The translations under genes and the position numbers were made by a program. Source: Peptococcaceae bacterium (GTDB lineage Bacteria; Bacillota; Peptococcia; DRI-13; PHAD01). From it: DNA of 52,480 nucleotides. Of the stretch, positions 26,447 to 40,985 are shown in pieces (within the stretch, counting starts at the first letter, position 1; each line of letters begins with the position of its first letter). The notes beneath the pieces were generated by a model, which saw nothing but the letters and a program-made list of their open reading frames with translations, was not told the DNA's origin and did not search any database. The DNA lies in the NCBI GenBank assembly GCA_024655825.1, contig JANLFJ010000021.1:1-52480 (forward strand), written 5' to 3'.

Positions 26447-26797
26447 TTGCCTAGAAAAGCAACGCCCAAAAATAAAGCGCGCAGTTCGATTGTCGAGGAG
26501 GGAATCAGTATTACGCCTATCCCGGCGACCGAAGGCGAAACGATTACCATCACTTACGACGGGTTGCTTGCCAAAAGCGGGGCCAAAAGTATTTATACAC
26601 ATATCGGCTATGGGAGCAATGACCACTGGGCCGACATCGAGGATATCCCCATGAGCAGGCTTCCGCATGGATGGACCTGCGACATACTGCCCAAAAAGGA
26701 AAGAATGAACTTTTGCTTTCACGACGGAGCGAACAACTGGGATAACAATTACGGGCGCAATTGGAGCATTTCCATCCACAACGGGGAAGATGTGTGA
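26447..26797 (+). CDS. Stand-alone CBM25-like carbohydrate-binding protein
   Basis: This 116-residue protein begins with a short basic tail (PRKATPKNKARSS) and then one beta-rich domain: ITITYDGLLAKSGAKSIYTHIGYGSNDHWADIEDIPM through FCFHDGANNWDNNYGRNWSISI. The pattern of aromatic residues and the closing FxFHDGxxxWDNNxGxNW is typical of starch-binding CBM25 modules. No signal peptide or catalytic domain is attached, so it would remain in the cytosol (or in the spore). TTG 26447 follows AGGAGG. It is flanked by terminators on both sides, so it is its own unit. The role is unknown; binding of glycogen or spore polysaccharide is one idea. Confidence 0.72.
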   Translation: MPRKATPKNKARSSIVEEGISITPIPATEGETITITYDGLLAKSGAKSIYTHIGYGSNDHWADIEDIPMSRLPHGWTCDILPKKERMNFCFHDGANNWDNNYGRNWSISIHNGEDV

Positions 26798-26852: not shown

Positions 26853-26923
26853 CATATGGATGATTTTAATCATAATAGGGAATAATGTTCTATAACGATA
26901 ATAAACGACAGGGGCTCATTCTT

Positions 26924-27184
26924 ATGCGCCATCTTTTAAAAATCATTAACCAGAATAAACCAAAGCTTCGGGAACTTGATCCGACAACAGTCCAAAGGAT
27001 TAAAGAGGGTATATACTTGGTCAAAATTATCAGCGAAACTGAAGTAACTGCCCGTAAATGCGATTTCTATGCCGGGAACGCCACCGATCAGGAAATAGCC
27101 AAATTTTTTCAAGAACAGGCGGATACACTAAAGAAAGCCAAGAATTTACTGCAGGAATACTACGAAAGCATGACCCAGGAGTGA
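26924..27184 (+). CDS. Small helical protein, possible spore coat component
   Basis: I do not recognise this 86-residue protein with certainty. It is all-helical in appearance (IKEGIYLVKIISETEVTARKCDFYAGNATDQEIAKFFQEQADTLKKA...), without membrane helix or signal peptide, and could form a ferritin-like helical pair with the next gene product. ATG 26924 is preferred because AGGGGCTC precedes it; an in-frame ATG at 26885 would add 13 residues. The stop lies 7 bases before the next gene, whose ribosome site AGGAG overlaps this gene's end. Confidence 0.65.
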   Translation: MRHLLKIINQNKPKLRELDPTTVQRIKEGIYLVKIISETEVTARKCDFYAGNATDQEIAKFFQEQADTLKKAKNLLQEYYESMTQE

Positions 27185-27191
27185 TTTATCG

Positions 27192-27386
27192 ATGAAATTT
27201 ACTGATATGGACATGCTCCAGGATTATGAAAAAGATACAAGAATGGCCACAGTGGCCTACGCGCTGATCCAGACTGAGATTATCGACCCCACATTAAGGA
27301 AAATCATAGGCAAGGTTAACAACGAAGCGGCCAAGGCTCAAGAAAAGGCCGCCAAGCTGATTCTATCAAGAGGAGACCGCCCGTAG
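27192..27386 (+). CDS. Small CotF-like spore coat protein
   Basis: This 64-residue helical protein contains DMLQDYEKDTRMATVAYALIQTEIIDPTLRKII, which resembles the core of CotF-family coat proteins (a YEK segment, then a helix ending in xxPxLRxxL). It is shorter than most CotF proteins and lacks the usual C-terminal tail. ATG 27192 follows AGGAG. Translationally coupled with the gene before it, the two probably work together. A coat role is inferred from resemblance only. Confidence 0.65.
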   Translation: MKFTDMDMLQDYEKDTRMATVAYALIQTEIIDPTLRKIIGKVNNEAAKAQEKAAKLILSRGDRP

Positions 27387-27421: not shown

Positions 27422-27450
27422 TTCAAAAACCGCTGAAAAACTGCTATAAT
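27422..27450 (+). promoter_or_regulatory. Sigma-A promoter of the hyd operon
   Basis: TTCAAA (27422-27427), a 17-base spacer and TATAAT (27445-27450). Initiation near 27457 would give a leader of about 200 bases before hydE. Confidence 0.72.
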
Positions 27451-27550
27451 TTAATTGTTCCTTAGGGAGAGGCGAGTCTGAACCCGAGGGAAAATGTTCA
27501 ATTTGAACCCTAAAAACAAGGGATTTCTGAGTTGCAGGGGGGTGTGCGGC

Positions 27551-27592
27551 ATGATCATTTCAGCAGCTTTATCCGTAAACGGCTACGGGTAA
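27551..27592 (+). CDS. Possible 13-residue leader peptide in the hyd leader
   Basis: ATG 27551 opens a frame encoding MIISAALSVNGYG, ending in TAA. AGGGGGGTG (27536-27544) sits 8 bases before the ATG. The second half of the frame is the 5' arm, loop and part of the 3' arm of the terminator hairpin, so a ribosome translating it would disrupt the hairpin. There is no run of a single amino acid that would point to classical amino-acid attenuation. The overlap may be chance. Confidence 0.4.
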   Translation: MIISAALSVNGYG

Positions 27593-27605
27593 GGCTTTTT
27601 ATTTT
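27565..27605 (+). terminator. Intrinsic terminator inside the hyd leader
   Basis: AGCTTTATCCGT (27565-27576) pairs over 12 positions, two of them G-U, with ACGGGTAAGGCT (27585-27596). A T-rich tail follows (TTTTATTTT). It lies upstream of hydE and has no other gene to end, so it probably controls entry into the operon. Confidence 0.75.
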
Positions 27606-27663
27606 CCCTCCAGGCAGTTTGGAGACAAGACCAGTCATCGAAATTCAGAGGTGATGGTTACAA

Positions 27664-28725
27664 GTGACGTTGATTACAGAAATGCTGGATTCATATGCAA
27701 CCGGTTCGGAACTGAAACGGGAGCATCTTATCGCGCTGCTTGGCGTGGAGTCAACAGAAGAGCTCTTAAGAATTCAGGAAAAGGTTAATGAAGTACGCCG
27801 AGAATGGGTAGGCGATGCCGTCCATATACGAGGCATCATTGAATTCTCCAACTACTGCACGCGCAGTTGCGCATACTGTGGGTTAAACCGGCACAACCGC
27901 AGCCTGAAACGGTACCGGATGACCCCGGAAGATATTGTCACAACTGCTCTTAAAGCATCAAAGATGGGATTTCGCACCATCGTGCTGCAGTCCGGCGAAG
28001 ACCCGTTTTTTACGGCAGAAATACTGGCCGATGTTATCAGGGAAATAAAGAAAACGGGGACGGCCGTAACCCTAAGCGTTGGCGAACGGCCAGCCAGGGA
28101 TTATCAATTGTGGCGGGAAGTGGGGGCCGACCGTTACCTGCTCAAGTTTGAGACATCGAACCCCGCGCTTTATGCCCGGCTGCATCCGGGAAGTTCTCTG
28201 AAGAACAGGTTGCGCTGCCTACAGGATTTGCACGAGCTGGGTTACCAGGTCGGGTCCGGCAATATTGTAGGTCTCCCGCGGCAGGAGGCCGGTATCTTAG
28301 CGGACGATCTACTGCTGATGAGAGAACTAAAACTGGAAATGGCCGGGATAGGACCATTTCTGCCGCATCCCGGCACAACTTTAGCGCGCCACCCAGCGCC
28401 CGATGTCAGCATGTGCCTGAAGGTTCTTGCCCTGGCCCGGCTGGTCATTCCCTGGGCCCACCTGCCGGCAACCACAGCCCTGGGGTGTTTAAATCCAGAC
28501 GGCTTCAAACTCGGACTGGAGTGGGGCGCCAATGTCCTGATGGCCAGCCTGACCCCAGCGGTTTACCGTCAATATTATGAAATCTACCCGCAAAAAGCAC
28601 AGAGCGATAAGGCGGTCCAAATGAAGCTGCTGGCGTCCCAGCTGAGACGCGATGTAGCCGCCGATCCGGGCCACGGACTGCTTACTTTAAATTTAAATAA
28701 TAGAAACAGGGAGGTTAAAACATGA
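27664..28725 (+). CDS. hydE: [FeFe] hydrogenase maturase HydE (radical SAM)
   Basis: HydE is a radical SAM enzyme that processes the organometallic precursor made by HydG during assembly of the H-cluster diiron site. The 353-residue protein has the cluster motif CTRSCAYC at about residues 63-70 in FSNYCTRSCAYCGLNR, followed by YRMTPEDI, TIVLQSGEDP and LKFETSNPALYARLHPG. GTG 27664 follows AGAGGTGATGG. It overlaps hydG by 4 bases (ATGA). It is separated from upstream genes by its own promoter and leader. Confidence 0.93.
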   Translation: MTLITEMLDSYATGSELKREHLIALLGVESTEELLRIQEKVNEVRREWVGDAVHIRGIIEFSNYCTRSCAYCGLNRHNRSLKRYRMTPEDIVTTALKASKMGFRTIVLQSGEDPFFTAEILADVIREIKKTGTAVTLSVGERPARDYQLWREVGADRYLLKFETSNPALYARLHPGSSLKNRLRCLQDLHELGYQVGSGNIVGLPRQEAGILADDLLLMRELKLEMAGIGPFLPHPGTTLARHPAPDVSMCLKVLALARLVIPWAHLPATTALGCLNPDGFKLGLEWGANVLMASLTPAVYRQYYEIYPQKAQSDKAVQMKLLASQLRRDVAADPGHGLLTLNLNNRNREVKT

Positions 28726-30128
28726 CGCTTCAGGCAAAAGATTTTATCAATGAAAATGAAATTTGGTCGCTTCTTGAAAACAGCAGGCATCTTCCAACTG
28801 AAGAAATAGAGGGGATCATCGAACGGGCTCGCCGGGCCAAGGGACTTGAACCCTGGGAAGTAGCGGCCCTTATCCAGGTCGAAGACGTTAACCTGCTCCA
28901 AAAAATGTACACCGCGGCCAAGGAGATCAAAGAGAAGATTTACGGCAAAAGGATGGTACTATTTGCGCCGCTGTATATCAGCAATTATTGCCTAAATGCC
29001 TGCGATTACTGTGGTTATAATTGCCACAACAATGACATGTCGCGCCGCAAGCTGACCATGGACGAGATTGCTGAAGAAGTGCGCATTCTCGAAAGAATGG
29101 GTCACAAGCGCATTGCGCTGGAAACAGGGGAGCATCCCGTAATCTGCCCTATAGATTATGTGATTGAGGCCATGGAAACCATTTACCGGGTCCAGGATAA
29201 CAACGGCGCAATTCGCAGGATTAATGTAAACATTGCCGCAACCACGGTGGAAGATTATCGCAAGCTCAAAGCGGCAGGCATCGGCACGTACGTATTATTC
29301 CAAGAAACATATCATCACGAAACCTACCAGAAAGTGCACAAACAGGGGCCAAAATCCGATTACCTCTGGCATTTGACGGCCATGGACCGGGCAATGGAGG
29401 CCGGGATTGACGACGTAGGTCTTGGGGTTCTGTTTGGACTTTACGATTACCGGTTCGACGTGATGGGATTGATAATGCATGCCCGGCACCTGGAAAGCGT
29501 CTTCGGTGTGGGCCCGCATACTATTTCCTTTCCACGGTTGCGGCCGGCGGAAGGCGTTAGCCTGAAAAATTTCCCATACCTTGTTGCTGATCAAGATTTT
29601 CGTAAAATTATTGCAGTTTTGCGGCTGGCCGTTCCTTACACCGGAATGATTCTTTCAACCCGCGAGAGGCCTGGATTCCGCGACGAACTGCTGGAACTCG
29701 GCATCAGCCAGATAAGTTCGGGCTCCTGCACCGGGGTGGGGGGCTACAAGCTGGAAGCGCAAGGTAAGAAAAGCCAAAATACCGCCCAATTTGTTATCGA
29801 AGACGAAAGGACGCCGCAGGAAATGCTCTACAGCCTCTGCCAGAGCGGGTATATTCCCAGCTACTGCACAGCATGCTACCGCAGCGGGCGAACAGGGGAT
29901 CGCTTCATGGCCCTGGCCAAATCGGGCGAGATCGGCAACGTCTGCCAGCCCAACGCCATCCTGACATTCAAGGAATTCCTCGTAGACTACGCAAGCCCTG
30001 AGTTACGGGCTATTGGCGAAAAAACCATTGAGGCGCACTTGAATTTGATCGAAAACAGAACAGTTCGTGACAAAACCGTGGAAAGACTGCAGGCCATCGA
30101 GCAAGGCCAGCGCGATCTTTATTTTTGA
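28722..30128 (+). CDS. hydG: [FeFe] hydrogenase maturase HydG (tyrosine lyase)
   Basis: HydG cleaves tyrosine to p-cresol, CO and cyanide on an iron-sulfur cluster, supplying the H-cluster ligands. The protein is 468 residues. The N-terminal radical SAM motif CLNACDYC is near residue 90. The C-terminal auxiliary-cluster motif CTACYR...NVC fits CX2CX22C exactly, which distinguishes HydG from ThiH. Conserved stretches include ETGEHPVICPIDYV and VLFQETYHHETYQKVHKQGPKSDY. It lies between hydE and hydF in one operon. Confidence 0.95.
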   Translation: MTLQAKDFINENEIWSLLENSRHLPTEEIEGIIERARRAKGLEPWEVAALIQVEDVNLLQKMYTAAKEIKEKIYGKRMVLFAPLYISNYCLNACDYCGYNCHNNDMSRRKLTMDEIAEEVRILERMGHKRIALETGEHPVICPIDYVIEAMETIYRVQDNNGAIRRINVNIAATTVEDYRKLKAAGIGTYVLFQETYHHETYQKVHKQGPKSDYLWHLTAMDRAMEAGIDDVGLGVLFGLYDYRFDVMGLIMHARHLESVFGVGPHTISFPRLRPAEGVSLKNFPYLVADQDFRKIIAVLRLAVPYTGMILSTRERPGFRDELLELGISQISSGSCTGVGGYKLEAQGKKSQNTAQFVIEDERTPQEMLYSLCQSGYIPSYCTACYRSGRTGDRFMALAKSGEIGNVCQPNAILTFKEFLVDYASPELRAIGEKTIEAHLNLIENRTVRDKTVERLQAIEQGQRDLYF

Positions 30129-30139
30129 GGTGAATAAAC

Positions 30140-31372
30140 ATGCTAGAAACGCCCAAAGCAAACCGGCTGCATATAGCCATTTTCGGAATGCGAAATGCCG
30201 GAAAATCAAGCCTGATCAACGCTTTAACCAATCAACCCATCGCGCTTGTCTCTGACATACCGGGAACTACGACCGATCCTGTTTTCAAGGCCATGGAGAT
30301 ACTTCCTATTGGTCCCTGCATGATCATTGACACGGCGGGAATAGATGACGAAGGGCTGCTTGGAGAACTTAGGATAAAAAAGACGTATGAAGTATTGAAC
30401 CAGACGGATCTGGCCCTTCTGGTGGTTGATCCCATTCTTGGGATAACCCGATACGTCCATGAACTAAAAAAGGCCCTGGAGGCAAAAAAAATTCCCGTTA
30501 TCGGGGTGTTCAATAAGGCCGACCTTGCTGGAACTTTGAACGGCCAACTTAAACAAATGGAAAACGAGTTGGGCCTTCCGCTGGTCGAAGTGAGCGTTAA
30601 GACCGGCGCGGGAATTGACCGGCTAAAGGAAGAGATAATTCGCCTGGCCCCCTTTGAGTTTGAGAAACCATACATTGTAGGCGATTTGATCAATCCAGGC
30701 GATGTGTGCCTGCTGGTGGTACCCATAGACCTGGCAGCCCCCAAGGGAAGGCTGATCCTTCCTCAAGTCCAGACCCTAAGAGACATCCTGGACAGCAATG
30801 CCGTGGGGATAGTTGTGAAAGAGACGGAACTTGCTGAAACCTTGAACCAGCTCAATAAAAAGCCGCGACTGGTTATTACCGATTCACAGGCCTTTTCGAA
30901 AGTGGCTACGGATACCCCAGACGATGTGTTGATGACATCATTTTCCATTCTCTTTGCCCGCTTCAAGGCTGACTTGGCGGAAATGGTAAGCGGGATAAAG
31001 GGAGTAAAAAGGCTTAAATCTGGTGATAGAGTTTTAATTTCGGAAGCCTGCACACACCATGTTCAGGCCGACGACATCGGACGGGTAAAAATCCCGCGCC
31101 TGCTTCGCCAGTACGTGGGTGGAGAACTGGACTTTCAATGGTCAAGCGGCACTGGCTACCCGGAAAACCTGGAAACTTTCAAACTTGTTGTTCACTGCGG
31201 GGGCTGCATGATCAACCGCCGTCAGATGATATACCGCATCCAGCAAGCTAGGAATAAGGGAATATCAGTAGTAAATTACGGTATCCTGCTGGCCTTTTTA
31301 CACGGCATTCTGGACAGGGCGCTCAAGCCCTTCGGGTCAGCTTACAAGGTCTTTAAAGAAGAGTGTGTATAA
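30140..31372 (+). CDS. hydF: [FeFe] hydrogenase maturation GTPase HydF
   Basis: HydF is the GTPase scaffold on which the diiron subcluster is assembled and handed to HydA. The 410-residue protein has the G1 loop GMRNAGKSSLINAL (residues 16-29), G3 DTAGIDDEG, G4 NKAD and the C-terminal iron-sulfur ligands CTHH (CxH) and HCGGC (HCxxC). ATG 30140 follows GAGGTG. All three maturases are present and adjacent, but no hydA-type structural gene lies in the window. Confidence 0.95.
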   Translation: MLETPKANRLHIAIFGMRNAGKSSLINALTNQPIALVSDIPGTTTDPVFKAMEILPIGPCMIIDTAGIDDEGLLGELRIKKTYEVLNQTDLALLVVDPILGITRYVHELKKALEAKKIPVIGVFNKADLAGTLNGQLKQMENELGLPLVEVSVKTGAGIDRLKEEIIRLAPFEFEKPYIVGDLINPGDVCLLVVPIDLAAPKGRLILPQVQTLRDILDSNAVGIVVKETELAETLNQLNKKPRLVITDSQAFSKVATDTPDDVLMTSFSILFARFKADLAEMVSGIKGVKRLKSGDRVLISEACTHHVQADDIGRVKIPRLLRQYVGGELDFQWSSGTGYPENLETFKLVVHCGGCMINRRQMIYRIQQARNKGISVVNYGILLAFLHGILDRALKPFGSAYKVFKEECV

Positions 31373-31445
31373 ACCGAGCTTTACAAAAGCGAACAATTGT
31401 TCTATTATTATGATGAAAGGTTTGACGCACAAAAGGGAGGTAAAA

Positions 31446-32495
31446 ATGCGAACCGGTATCGCCAGTATTCCCCTTCATGGGGGACACTGCCCGCCCTGGC
31501 TTTTTGAAAAGATGAAGAAGCTGGGAACGGCCATAATCCAGGTAATCGTTTATGAATACGGGACAGCAGAGGTGCTGACCAGGTTGTCTGACCCTGTCTG
31601 GTTTCAGACCCTGGGCTCCGTACTCGGCTTTGACTGGCATTCTTCCGGTTTGACCACTGTACTCTGCGGGGCTTTAAAAGAAGGAGTCGTTGAAATGCAA
31701 GGAGAACTGGGCCTCTTTTTTGCCGGAGGAAAGGGGAGAACCTCGCGCCAGACCCCGCAGGAAATCGCGGAAGCAGGAGAAAAATACGGGCTGCCCGGTA
31801 GTTACGAGGTGCTCCAGCGGGCAAGCCGTATGGTGGCTAAAGTAGACTCTGCCGCCGTACAGGACGGCTACCAGTTGTATCACCATTTCTTCGCTTTCGA
31901 TAAAAACGGAAGATGGGCCGTCGTCCAGCAGGGCATGAATGAAGCCAATCGCTATGCGCGCAGGTATCACTGGTTGAGCGATAATGTAAAGAGCTTCGTC
32001 GAAGAACCACACACCGGTATTTGCGGAACTCGGGAAAAAGAGGTGTTGAATCTCGTTTCCCAGGAAAATAGTAAGTTAAGAACAGCATCGGTCGAACTAT
32101 GCAGCGAGAAACCGGAAAAGTTGATAAAATTAATAATGCCCGCGGGGCATGACATTCCTCGCCAGGCTTACTTGAATAAAATTTTATACAAGCTGTATGA
32201 AAGGCCGCCACAATATTACGAAACCCTGCTGGAGACACCCGGCGTTGGAGCCAGCACTTTAAGGGCTCTGGTCATGGTAGCAGAGGCAACTCACGGTGTC
32301 AAACCTTCCTATCAAGACCCTGTCCGCTATGCATTTGCCCACGGCGGGAAAGACGGGTTCCCTTTCCCCGTCCAGCGTAAAGATTACGAGTATTCAATTG
32401 AAGTATTAGAAAAAGCCGTCCAGAAAGCTAAAATGGGCTGCAGCGATAGGCTCGCCGCCTTAAGAAGGTTAGCTTACTTTCAACAAAATGCTTGA
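31446..32495 (+). CDS. DUF763 family protein
   Basis: This 349-residue protein matches my recollection of the DUF763 family, known mostly from archaea and thermophilic bacteria, with the opening RTGIASIPLHGGHCPPWLFEKMKKLG. A helix-hairpin-helix-like stretch, LLETPGVGASTLRALVMVAE, occurs near residue 265, suggesting DNA binding. No membrane helix or signal peptide. ATG 31446 has AGGGAGG upstream. The gene follows hydF by about 73 bases on the same strand and could be read from the hyd promoter. Its function is unknown; a link to DNA repair or processing is only suggested by the HhH-like motif. Confidence 0.78.
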   Translation: MRTGIASIPLHGGHCPPWLFEKMKKLGTAIIQVIVYEYGTAEVLTRLSDPVWFQTLGSVLGFDWHSSGLTTVLCGALKEGVVEMQGELGLFFAGGKGRTSRQTPQEIAEAGEKYGLPGSYEVLQRASRMVAKVDSAAVQDGYQLYHHFFAFDKNGRWAVVQQGMNEANRYARRYHWLSDNVKSFVEEPHTGICGTREKEVLNLVSQENSKLRTASVELCSEKPEKLIKLIMPAGHDIPRQAYLNKILYKLYERPPQYYETLLETPGVGASTLRALVMVAEATHGVKPSYQDPVRYAFAHGGKDGFPFPVQRKDYEYSIEVLEKAVQKAKMGCSDRLAALRRLAYFQQNA

Positions 32496-40888: not shown

Positions 40889-40985
40889 TGGCGGGAGCGT
40901 GTGGGAATCGAACCCACCCAGCGAAGGATCGCTTCGCCGCACTGGTTTTGAAGACCAGGCGCAACACCAGTCACAATCCGCCCCC
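40889..40985 (-). tRNA. selC: Selenocysteine tRNA (anticodon TCA)
   Basis: The 97-base RNA has the anticodon arm CTGGT-CTTCAAA-ACCAG with anticodon TCA (complement of 40949-40951), an acceptor stem GGGGGCG / CGCTCCC, the T-arm GTGGG-TTCGATT-CCCAC, an extra-long variable arm with GCGAAG-CGATC-CTTCGC, and an encoded CCA end. These are hallmarks of bacterial tRNA-Sec. It lies 15 bases downstream of selB on the same strand. Confidence 0.95.

Follow-up and report, generated by a model that had tools for sequence, protein, structure and literature searches.

What is the stretch of about 200 nucleotides that separates a promoter from the hydrogenase maturation genes hydE, hydG and hydF in this bacterium, and what might read it? 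The original prediction, made on the window (the whole 52,480-nucleotide stretch of DNA analyzed here), proposed an undescribed attenuator-type leader that controls these genes. Our analysis supports this proposal. The check suggested with it, a covariance model of related leaders, recovered the same structure from a large number of genomes, almost only ahead of hyd genes, and the matches covary strongly. The comparative evidence indicates that the leader belongs to a real and widely conserved class of structured regulatory RNA, for which the small protein TM1266 is, judging from genomic associations, the likeliest partner.

Layout of the leader

Much of the predicted layout was borne out by direct reading of the sequence (Table 1). 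The promoter is present, with an extended TG element that had not been mentioned, and the leader starts near position 27457. The hairpin with a T-tail, described as having 12 bp, has 13 pairs, and the CCCTCC that follows it is indeed complementary to an upstream GGGGGG. The three genes downstream were identified with NCBIfam models as hydE, hydG and hydF, with scores all well over the cut-offs.

Table 1. Features of the leader, its neighborhood in the window, and the second hairpin locus of the same genome (contig C2).
Feature	Position	Strand	Basis or remark
Small protein with CBM53-like carbohydrate-binding module	26447-26797	+	upstream of the leader
Two upstream ORFs	26885-27184 and 27192-27386		last end is 35 nt ahead of the promoter
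Sigma-A type promoter TTCAAA-17-TATAAT, extended -10 (TG)	27422-27450	+	consensus match only
Hairpin copy 1, CCU-UA-GGG-A-GAGGCGAGUCU-GAA-CCC-GA-GGG (CCTTAGGG/CCCGAGGG helix)	27460-27490	+	model R3, 16.2 bits
Hairpin copy 2, conserved core	27508-27539	+	covariance-model match, class covariation
Copy 2, P1 CCCU/AGGG	27508-27511/27536-27539	+	covariance model
Copy 2, P2 AAC/GUU	27515-27517/27531-27533	+	covariance model
Copy 2, AA/GA internal loop	27518-27519/27529-27530	+	covariance model
Copy 2, P3 GGG/UCU	27520-27522/27526-27528	+	covariance model
G-run GGGGGG (P1 3' strand plus 3 nt)	27537-27542	+	sequence; putative function
Candidate leader ORF MIISAALSVNGYG, stop codon within the terminator stem	27551-27592	+	tentative
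Intrinsic terminator, 13-pair stem, U tail	27565-27604	+	
CCCUCC, complementary to the G-run	27606-27611	+	sequence
hydE (SD AGAGGTGATGG, GTG start)	27664-28725	+	TIGR03956, 321 bits (cut-off 255)
hydG	28722-30128	+	TIGR03955, 656 bits
hydF	30140-31372	+	TIGR03918, 579 bits
DUF763 protein gene	31365-32495	+	overlaps the end of hydF, same direction
Selenocysteine tRNA gene	40893-40985	-	Rfam tRNA-Sec, 77 bits
TM1266 gene	C2:107947-108171		111 bits (cut-off 60.8)
Hairpin just before the TM1266 gene	C2:108283-108313		model R2, E ≤ 0.5

Two elements of the prediction had to be revised. The terminator was said to have no upstream gene to terminate, but two ORFs end just short of the promoter, so that it could also stop upstream transcription. 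Two mutually exclusive helices had also been proposed, in which CCTTAGGG pairs with either CCCGAGGG or CCCTAA. The first of these helices can form and is copy 1 of the hairpin described below. The second found no comparative support, and its CCCT belongs to another, better conserved hairpin (27509-27539) that had been missed. The proposal of an attenuator-type leader is supported, but the conserved unit is a hairpin with GA/AA loops, present in two tandem copies, and not a pair of competing helices.

The folding energy of the leader is unremarkable up to the terminator (z = -0.8) and mildly low when computed to position 27680 (z = -2.2). The minimum-energy fold has a long helix that encloses the terminator; this helix contains many G-U pairs, is not a general feature, and was rejected. 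It is the comparative evidence from covariance models, and not fold energy, that lifts the hairpins of the window above chance. The unexceptional energy and the ORFs ending at 27386 would suit an ordinary constitutive 5' UTR whose terminator serves the upstream ORFs, but covarying hairpins are conserved at the same place across Bacillota, and we regard this explanation as extremely improbable.

A class of covarying hairpins

The source organism is isolated, being the sole genome of its genus with only one other in its family, and DNA-level searches of the genus, the family and its own genome gave no nucleotide-level relative of the leader. A structural model was therefore needed. Leaders ahead of hydE or TM1266-hydE were gathered from relatives and compared by eye, which revealed the same small fold in several unrelated-looking leaders. 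Since MAFFT alignments misregistered the short helices, the seed rows were trimmed by hand. The resulting gapless seed, with loop and joining bases dropped and N in place of a missing base, was used for model R1 only. Run on 471 kb of loci, R1 found copies beyond the seeds, ahead of hydE or TM1266 genes. Models R2 (23 rows) and R3 (93 rows) were both trained on unaltered matches. Matches lying inside genes (L129, L133, L145, L149, L313-L315, L318, L319 and L322) and one without hyd context (L153) were rejected as chance.

The core that emerged is a pseudo-symmetric hairpin of about 30 nt, YCU-RA-NNN-RA-GGR ... YCU-GA-NNN-AA-RGG, with a central 3-bp helix for which all six pair types occur as it covaries, and a GA/AA internal loop on either side of it. 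The common fold consists of an outer helix of 3-4 bp (P1, CCY/RGG), a joining pair, a helix of 2-4 bp of any sequence (P2) and, past an AA/GA internal loop, a helix GGR/YCU (P3) closed by a short loop. Among 90 distinct sequences, P2 takes up to six pair types, whereas one A in the loop never varies, nor do the central pairs of P1 and P3. The P2 of the window, AAC/GUU, is replaced by CC/GG or UUAC/GUAA in relatives. The hairpin is often tandem and sits after the promoter and ahead of the gene, in coding-strand orientation, usually with an intrinsic terminator next.

Double changes exceeded expectation in every set. The seed-derived set has 31, against 10.7 ± 2.5 expected. Held-out matches have 94 double-change cells against 28.4 ± 4.3, with a covariation score of 0.586 against 0.207 ± 0.018 and at most 0.139 for slid structures. 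The full set of 90 distinct sequences has 164 double changes against 55.4 ± 5.6 (slid controls at most 52) and a score of 0.602 (slid at most 0.138); alignments made by a model lean to the structure of that model, but sliding the structure along these very rows gives far lower values.

Part of the conserved sequence is an imperfect inverted repeat near promoters, and the whole could also be read as a DNA operator for a transcription factor, the apparent pairing being no more than a palindromic site. A palindrome does not explain the common G-U wobbles (GU in 62/90 sequences at one pair, UG in 37/90 at another). The orientation of the hairpin is moreover fixed to the coding strand, the loop between the arms varies from 3 to more than 20 nt, and in L262 and L276 the hairpin sits within hydG ribosome-binding sites inside operons. 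We consider such an operator very improbable.

In both strands of the window, the two best R3 matches are the two hairpins of the leader, copy 2 at 27509-27539 (25.2 bits, E = 6e-5; 27.0 bits with R2) and copy 1 (E = 0.037), which was absent from the R3 training rows; the third-best match reaches 11.1 bits. The same tandem arrangement occurs in L231, L234, L263, L267 and L293, and first copies resembling, by eye, that of the window were seen in L151/L194 and L312. The window leader combines a coding-strand model match upstream of a hyd gene, P2 covariation with conserved GA/AA loop bases, and a TM1266 gene in the same genome, the features that define the new hyd/TM1266 leader class. Four leaders (L073, L074, L075 and L078) carry an extra conserved 5' hairpin, ATTGGYCTGnnGGCTnnGGCAAACAGRC, about 60 nt upstream of the core, which is perhaps the version of copy 1 in this subgroup. 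Just past their terminator U-tract, CGTTCC complements GGAACG in the tail of the core hairpin, an arrangement comparable to GGGGGG/CCCTCC in the window.

Against Rfam release 15 (4227 families), the window leader matches no family even at E ≤ 10, in line with the statement that no known class could be recognized; its relatives match none at the gathering threshold and nothing credible at E ≤ 5 or ≤ 1. The literature that we searched ties no riboswitch or RNA motif to hydE or hydG; a large 2017 survey of candidate RNAs was outside this search, and may hold an earlier description. The class thus appears to be previously unlisted, as far as Rfam and the literature searched can tell.

Genomic distribution

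In its own genome (3.16 Mb; R2, E ≤ 0.5), the hairpin occurs in only two places, the window leader and the leader of the TM1266 gene. In a held-out test on 100 TM1266 loci of other genomes, R2 gave 56 matches (E ≤ 10), 48 of which, in 42 loci, lie on the strand of TM1266 and 30-420 nt upstream of it (binomial P = 5e-53). Seven of the other eight are just before hydG (L198, L219, L259, L277 and L284, and, by coordinates, L262 and L276). The class spans many families of Bacillota, with members that include Pelotomaculum DTU098, Anaerotalea alkaliphila and a Eubacteriaceae MAG, and precedes TM1266-hydE, TM1266-hydG, TM1266-hydF, hydE, hydG and aspA-hydF-TM1266-hydG-hydE operons. In L144, L262 and L276 it lies at the ribosome-binding site of hydG. 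In one genome (L130, G038), the gene after TM1266 and its leader encodes an OpuCB-like ABC permease and is not a hyd gene.

When the class and 40 genomes were searched, credible members outside a hyd context were few, and these are transporter operons. The hairpin and a terminator lie ahead of SsuABC/NMT1-like ABC transporter operons in L127, L137, L326, L327 (G022/G023) and L312 (G188), and in L310 and L311 (G081/G287), where an ECF transporter S-component gene comes directly after trpS, the hairpin overlaps the ribosome-binding site of this gene. The substrate of the ABC transporters may be a hint to the signal.

TM1266 as the candidate partner

The hairpin is confined almost only to bacteria carrying TM1266. 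Among 398 genomes of the phylum, HydG was found in 212 and TM1266 in 206. Among TM1266-positive genomes, the group that R3 had itself been built from, we searched a further 20 HydG loci and found the hairpin before a hyd gene in 18, with no match in the other two; two of the genomes (G394 and G266) had given rows to R3, and excluding both leaves 16/18. No credible copy was found in up to about 13 kb around hydG in 20 HydG-bearing genomes without a TM1266 match, where the best score was 15.9 bits and no match was ahead of a hyd gene. The difference between 18/20 and 0/20 is large (Fisher P = 3e-9), with ancestry not fully controlled, and the co-occurrence is confounded by shared ancestry. The association is also seen within families: in f15, two genomes (G048 and G196) have both hairpin and TM1266 and one (G166) has neither, and in f78 two have both (G248 and G401) and two have neither (G138 and G318). 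Linkage is not the cause of the co-occurrence, since in 8/18 loci the hairpin precedes hydG while TM1266 is encoded on a different contig or at a distance of hundreds of kilobases. One exception is L080, from a genome that is 89% complete (G029), with a 17.9-bit copy and no TM1266 found.

TM1266 proteins are small and basic (mean pI 8.5), with an invariant Arg35, near-invariant Arg4 and Lys/Arg75, and no invariant Cys or His. The family is annotated as a putative "iron-only hydrogenase system regulator" (TIGR03959). The TM1266 of the source genome (G000) aligns to PDB 2NZC (E = 1e-10), which has a ferredoxin/ACT-like fold. The literature searched reports no RNA target of TM1266, and the protein is not known to bind RNA.

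The main rival explanation is that the hairpin is a riboswitch aptamer that directly binds a small-molecule or ionic ligand, such as an H-cluster assembly precursor or by-product, and that TM1266 merely co-travels. The presence of both transcriptional and SD-overlapping platforms is compatible with it, as are the tandem copies, which occur in some riboswitches, and the ABC transporters (L127, L137 and L312) and ECF S-component (L310 and L311) that would be expected for ligand uptake; the transporter operons fit a small-molecule signal equally well. Yet the core, just three 3-bp helices with few invariant bases, is small for an aptamer, and its presence tracks TM1266, not hydG. Its absence from the 20 hydG genomes without TM1266 disfavors in particular a metabolite of the HydE/HydG/HydF pathway. 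Overall, we find a direct ligand unlikely, if worth keeping in view, and the data favor a metabolite no more than they favor TM1266 as a protein acting in trans.

A proposed mechanism

We think it probable that TM1266 reads the leader, which would work by attenuation or as a switch at the ribosome-binding site. That TM1266 is an RNA-binding attenuation protein, with hydE, hydG, hydF and TM1266 forming a feedback regulon whose input is H-cluster assembly, the redox state or some small effector, seems to us an even bet. The leader would be a cis-acting RNA that sets the expression of the [FeFe]-hydrogenase maturation genes. The hairpin has low to moderate stability (about -8.7 kcal/mol on average and about -5.4 in the core of the window), which suits a bound partner: weakly stable alone, it would be held by a homodimer of the basic protein. 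Its 3' strand (AGGG in the window) would then not be free. In many leaders, the free strand could pair with the 5' arm of the terminator, as an antiterminator, or serve as a ribosome-binding site, and holding the hairpin would thus promote termination or block translation, if the ON/OFF sense is as we propose. The TM1266 gene itself carries the leader, so that control of hydE, hydG, hydF and TM1266 would be a feedback.

Terminators follow 68/77 leaders, and the strand 3' of P1 pairs better with cognate than with non-cognate terminator 5' arms (P = 2e-5), a preference that is clear in L064, L066, L198 and L273. In the window, antiterminator pairing was not evident in the same comparison. There and in several relatives, the strand 3' of P1 resembles a ribosome-binding site for a short ORF whose end falls within or close to the terminator, and the G-run could have this function in the window. 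The masking of this site, whose ORF runs into the terminator, would be the likelier link there, although the sequence no more than suggests it.

This layout also opens the way to leader-peptide attenuation, in which the short ORF would do the sensing and the hairpins would be incidental. The G-rich ribosome-binding site, the ATG and the stop within the terminator stem are as expected, and like layouts occur in L231 and L219 and, by reading, in L150. However, the ORF has no run of a single amino acid, no conserved peptide was found, and the layout is modestly enriched (26 of 68 leaders, against 17.9 expected from shuffles) where the hairpin is strongly conserved. We therefore judge a peptide sensor to be quite improbable.

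For a hairpin read by TM1266, known systems provide analogies. In the pyr attenuators, PyrR binds a leader hairpin with internal loops, which blocks the antiterminator and favors termination; several copies can occur, and the PyrR gene is often first in the operon. The hyd/TM1266 leader resembles them in its small hairpin with internal loops, its multiple copies and the leader on the gene of its presumed regulator; it differs in consensus, genes and protein family, and the window has no match to the PyrR RNA model. The RAT RNAs of BglG, SacY and LicT are hairpins of about 30 nt near a terminator, with two internal loops split by a short helix, and are bound by a symmetric protein dimer. Size and two-loop plan are shared, whereas the hyd/TM1266 leaders lack PTS genes and have another consensus, and the held hairpin would favor termination, the opposite sense. 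Tandem riboswitches (glycine, guanidine-II) also have two similar units upstream of a terminator, as in the window, but their Rfam families do not match and the hyd/TM1266 core is smaller and pseudo-symmetric. By analogy with PyrR and LicT, the simplest reading would be that a symmetric TM1266 dimer reads the pseudo-symmetric hairpin and that the TM1266 gene itself belongs to the regulon.

Implications

Little is known of how bacteria control the level of [FeFe]-hydrogenase assembly, and a leader RNA common to hydE, hydG, hydF and TM1266 across Bacillota would provide a concrete regulatory element. It offers a testable partner for TM1266, a widespread protein without assigned function for which a regulatory RNA partner would be new. 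The transporter operons that share this hairpin offer leads to the signal, and the leader itself may serve as a handle to tune hydrogenase maturation in fermentative and syntrophic bacteria.
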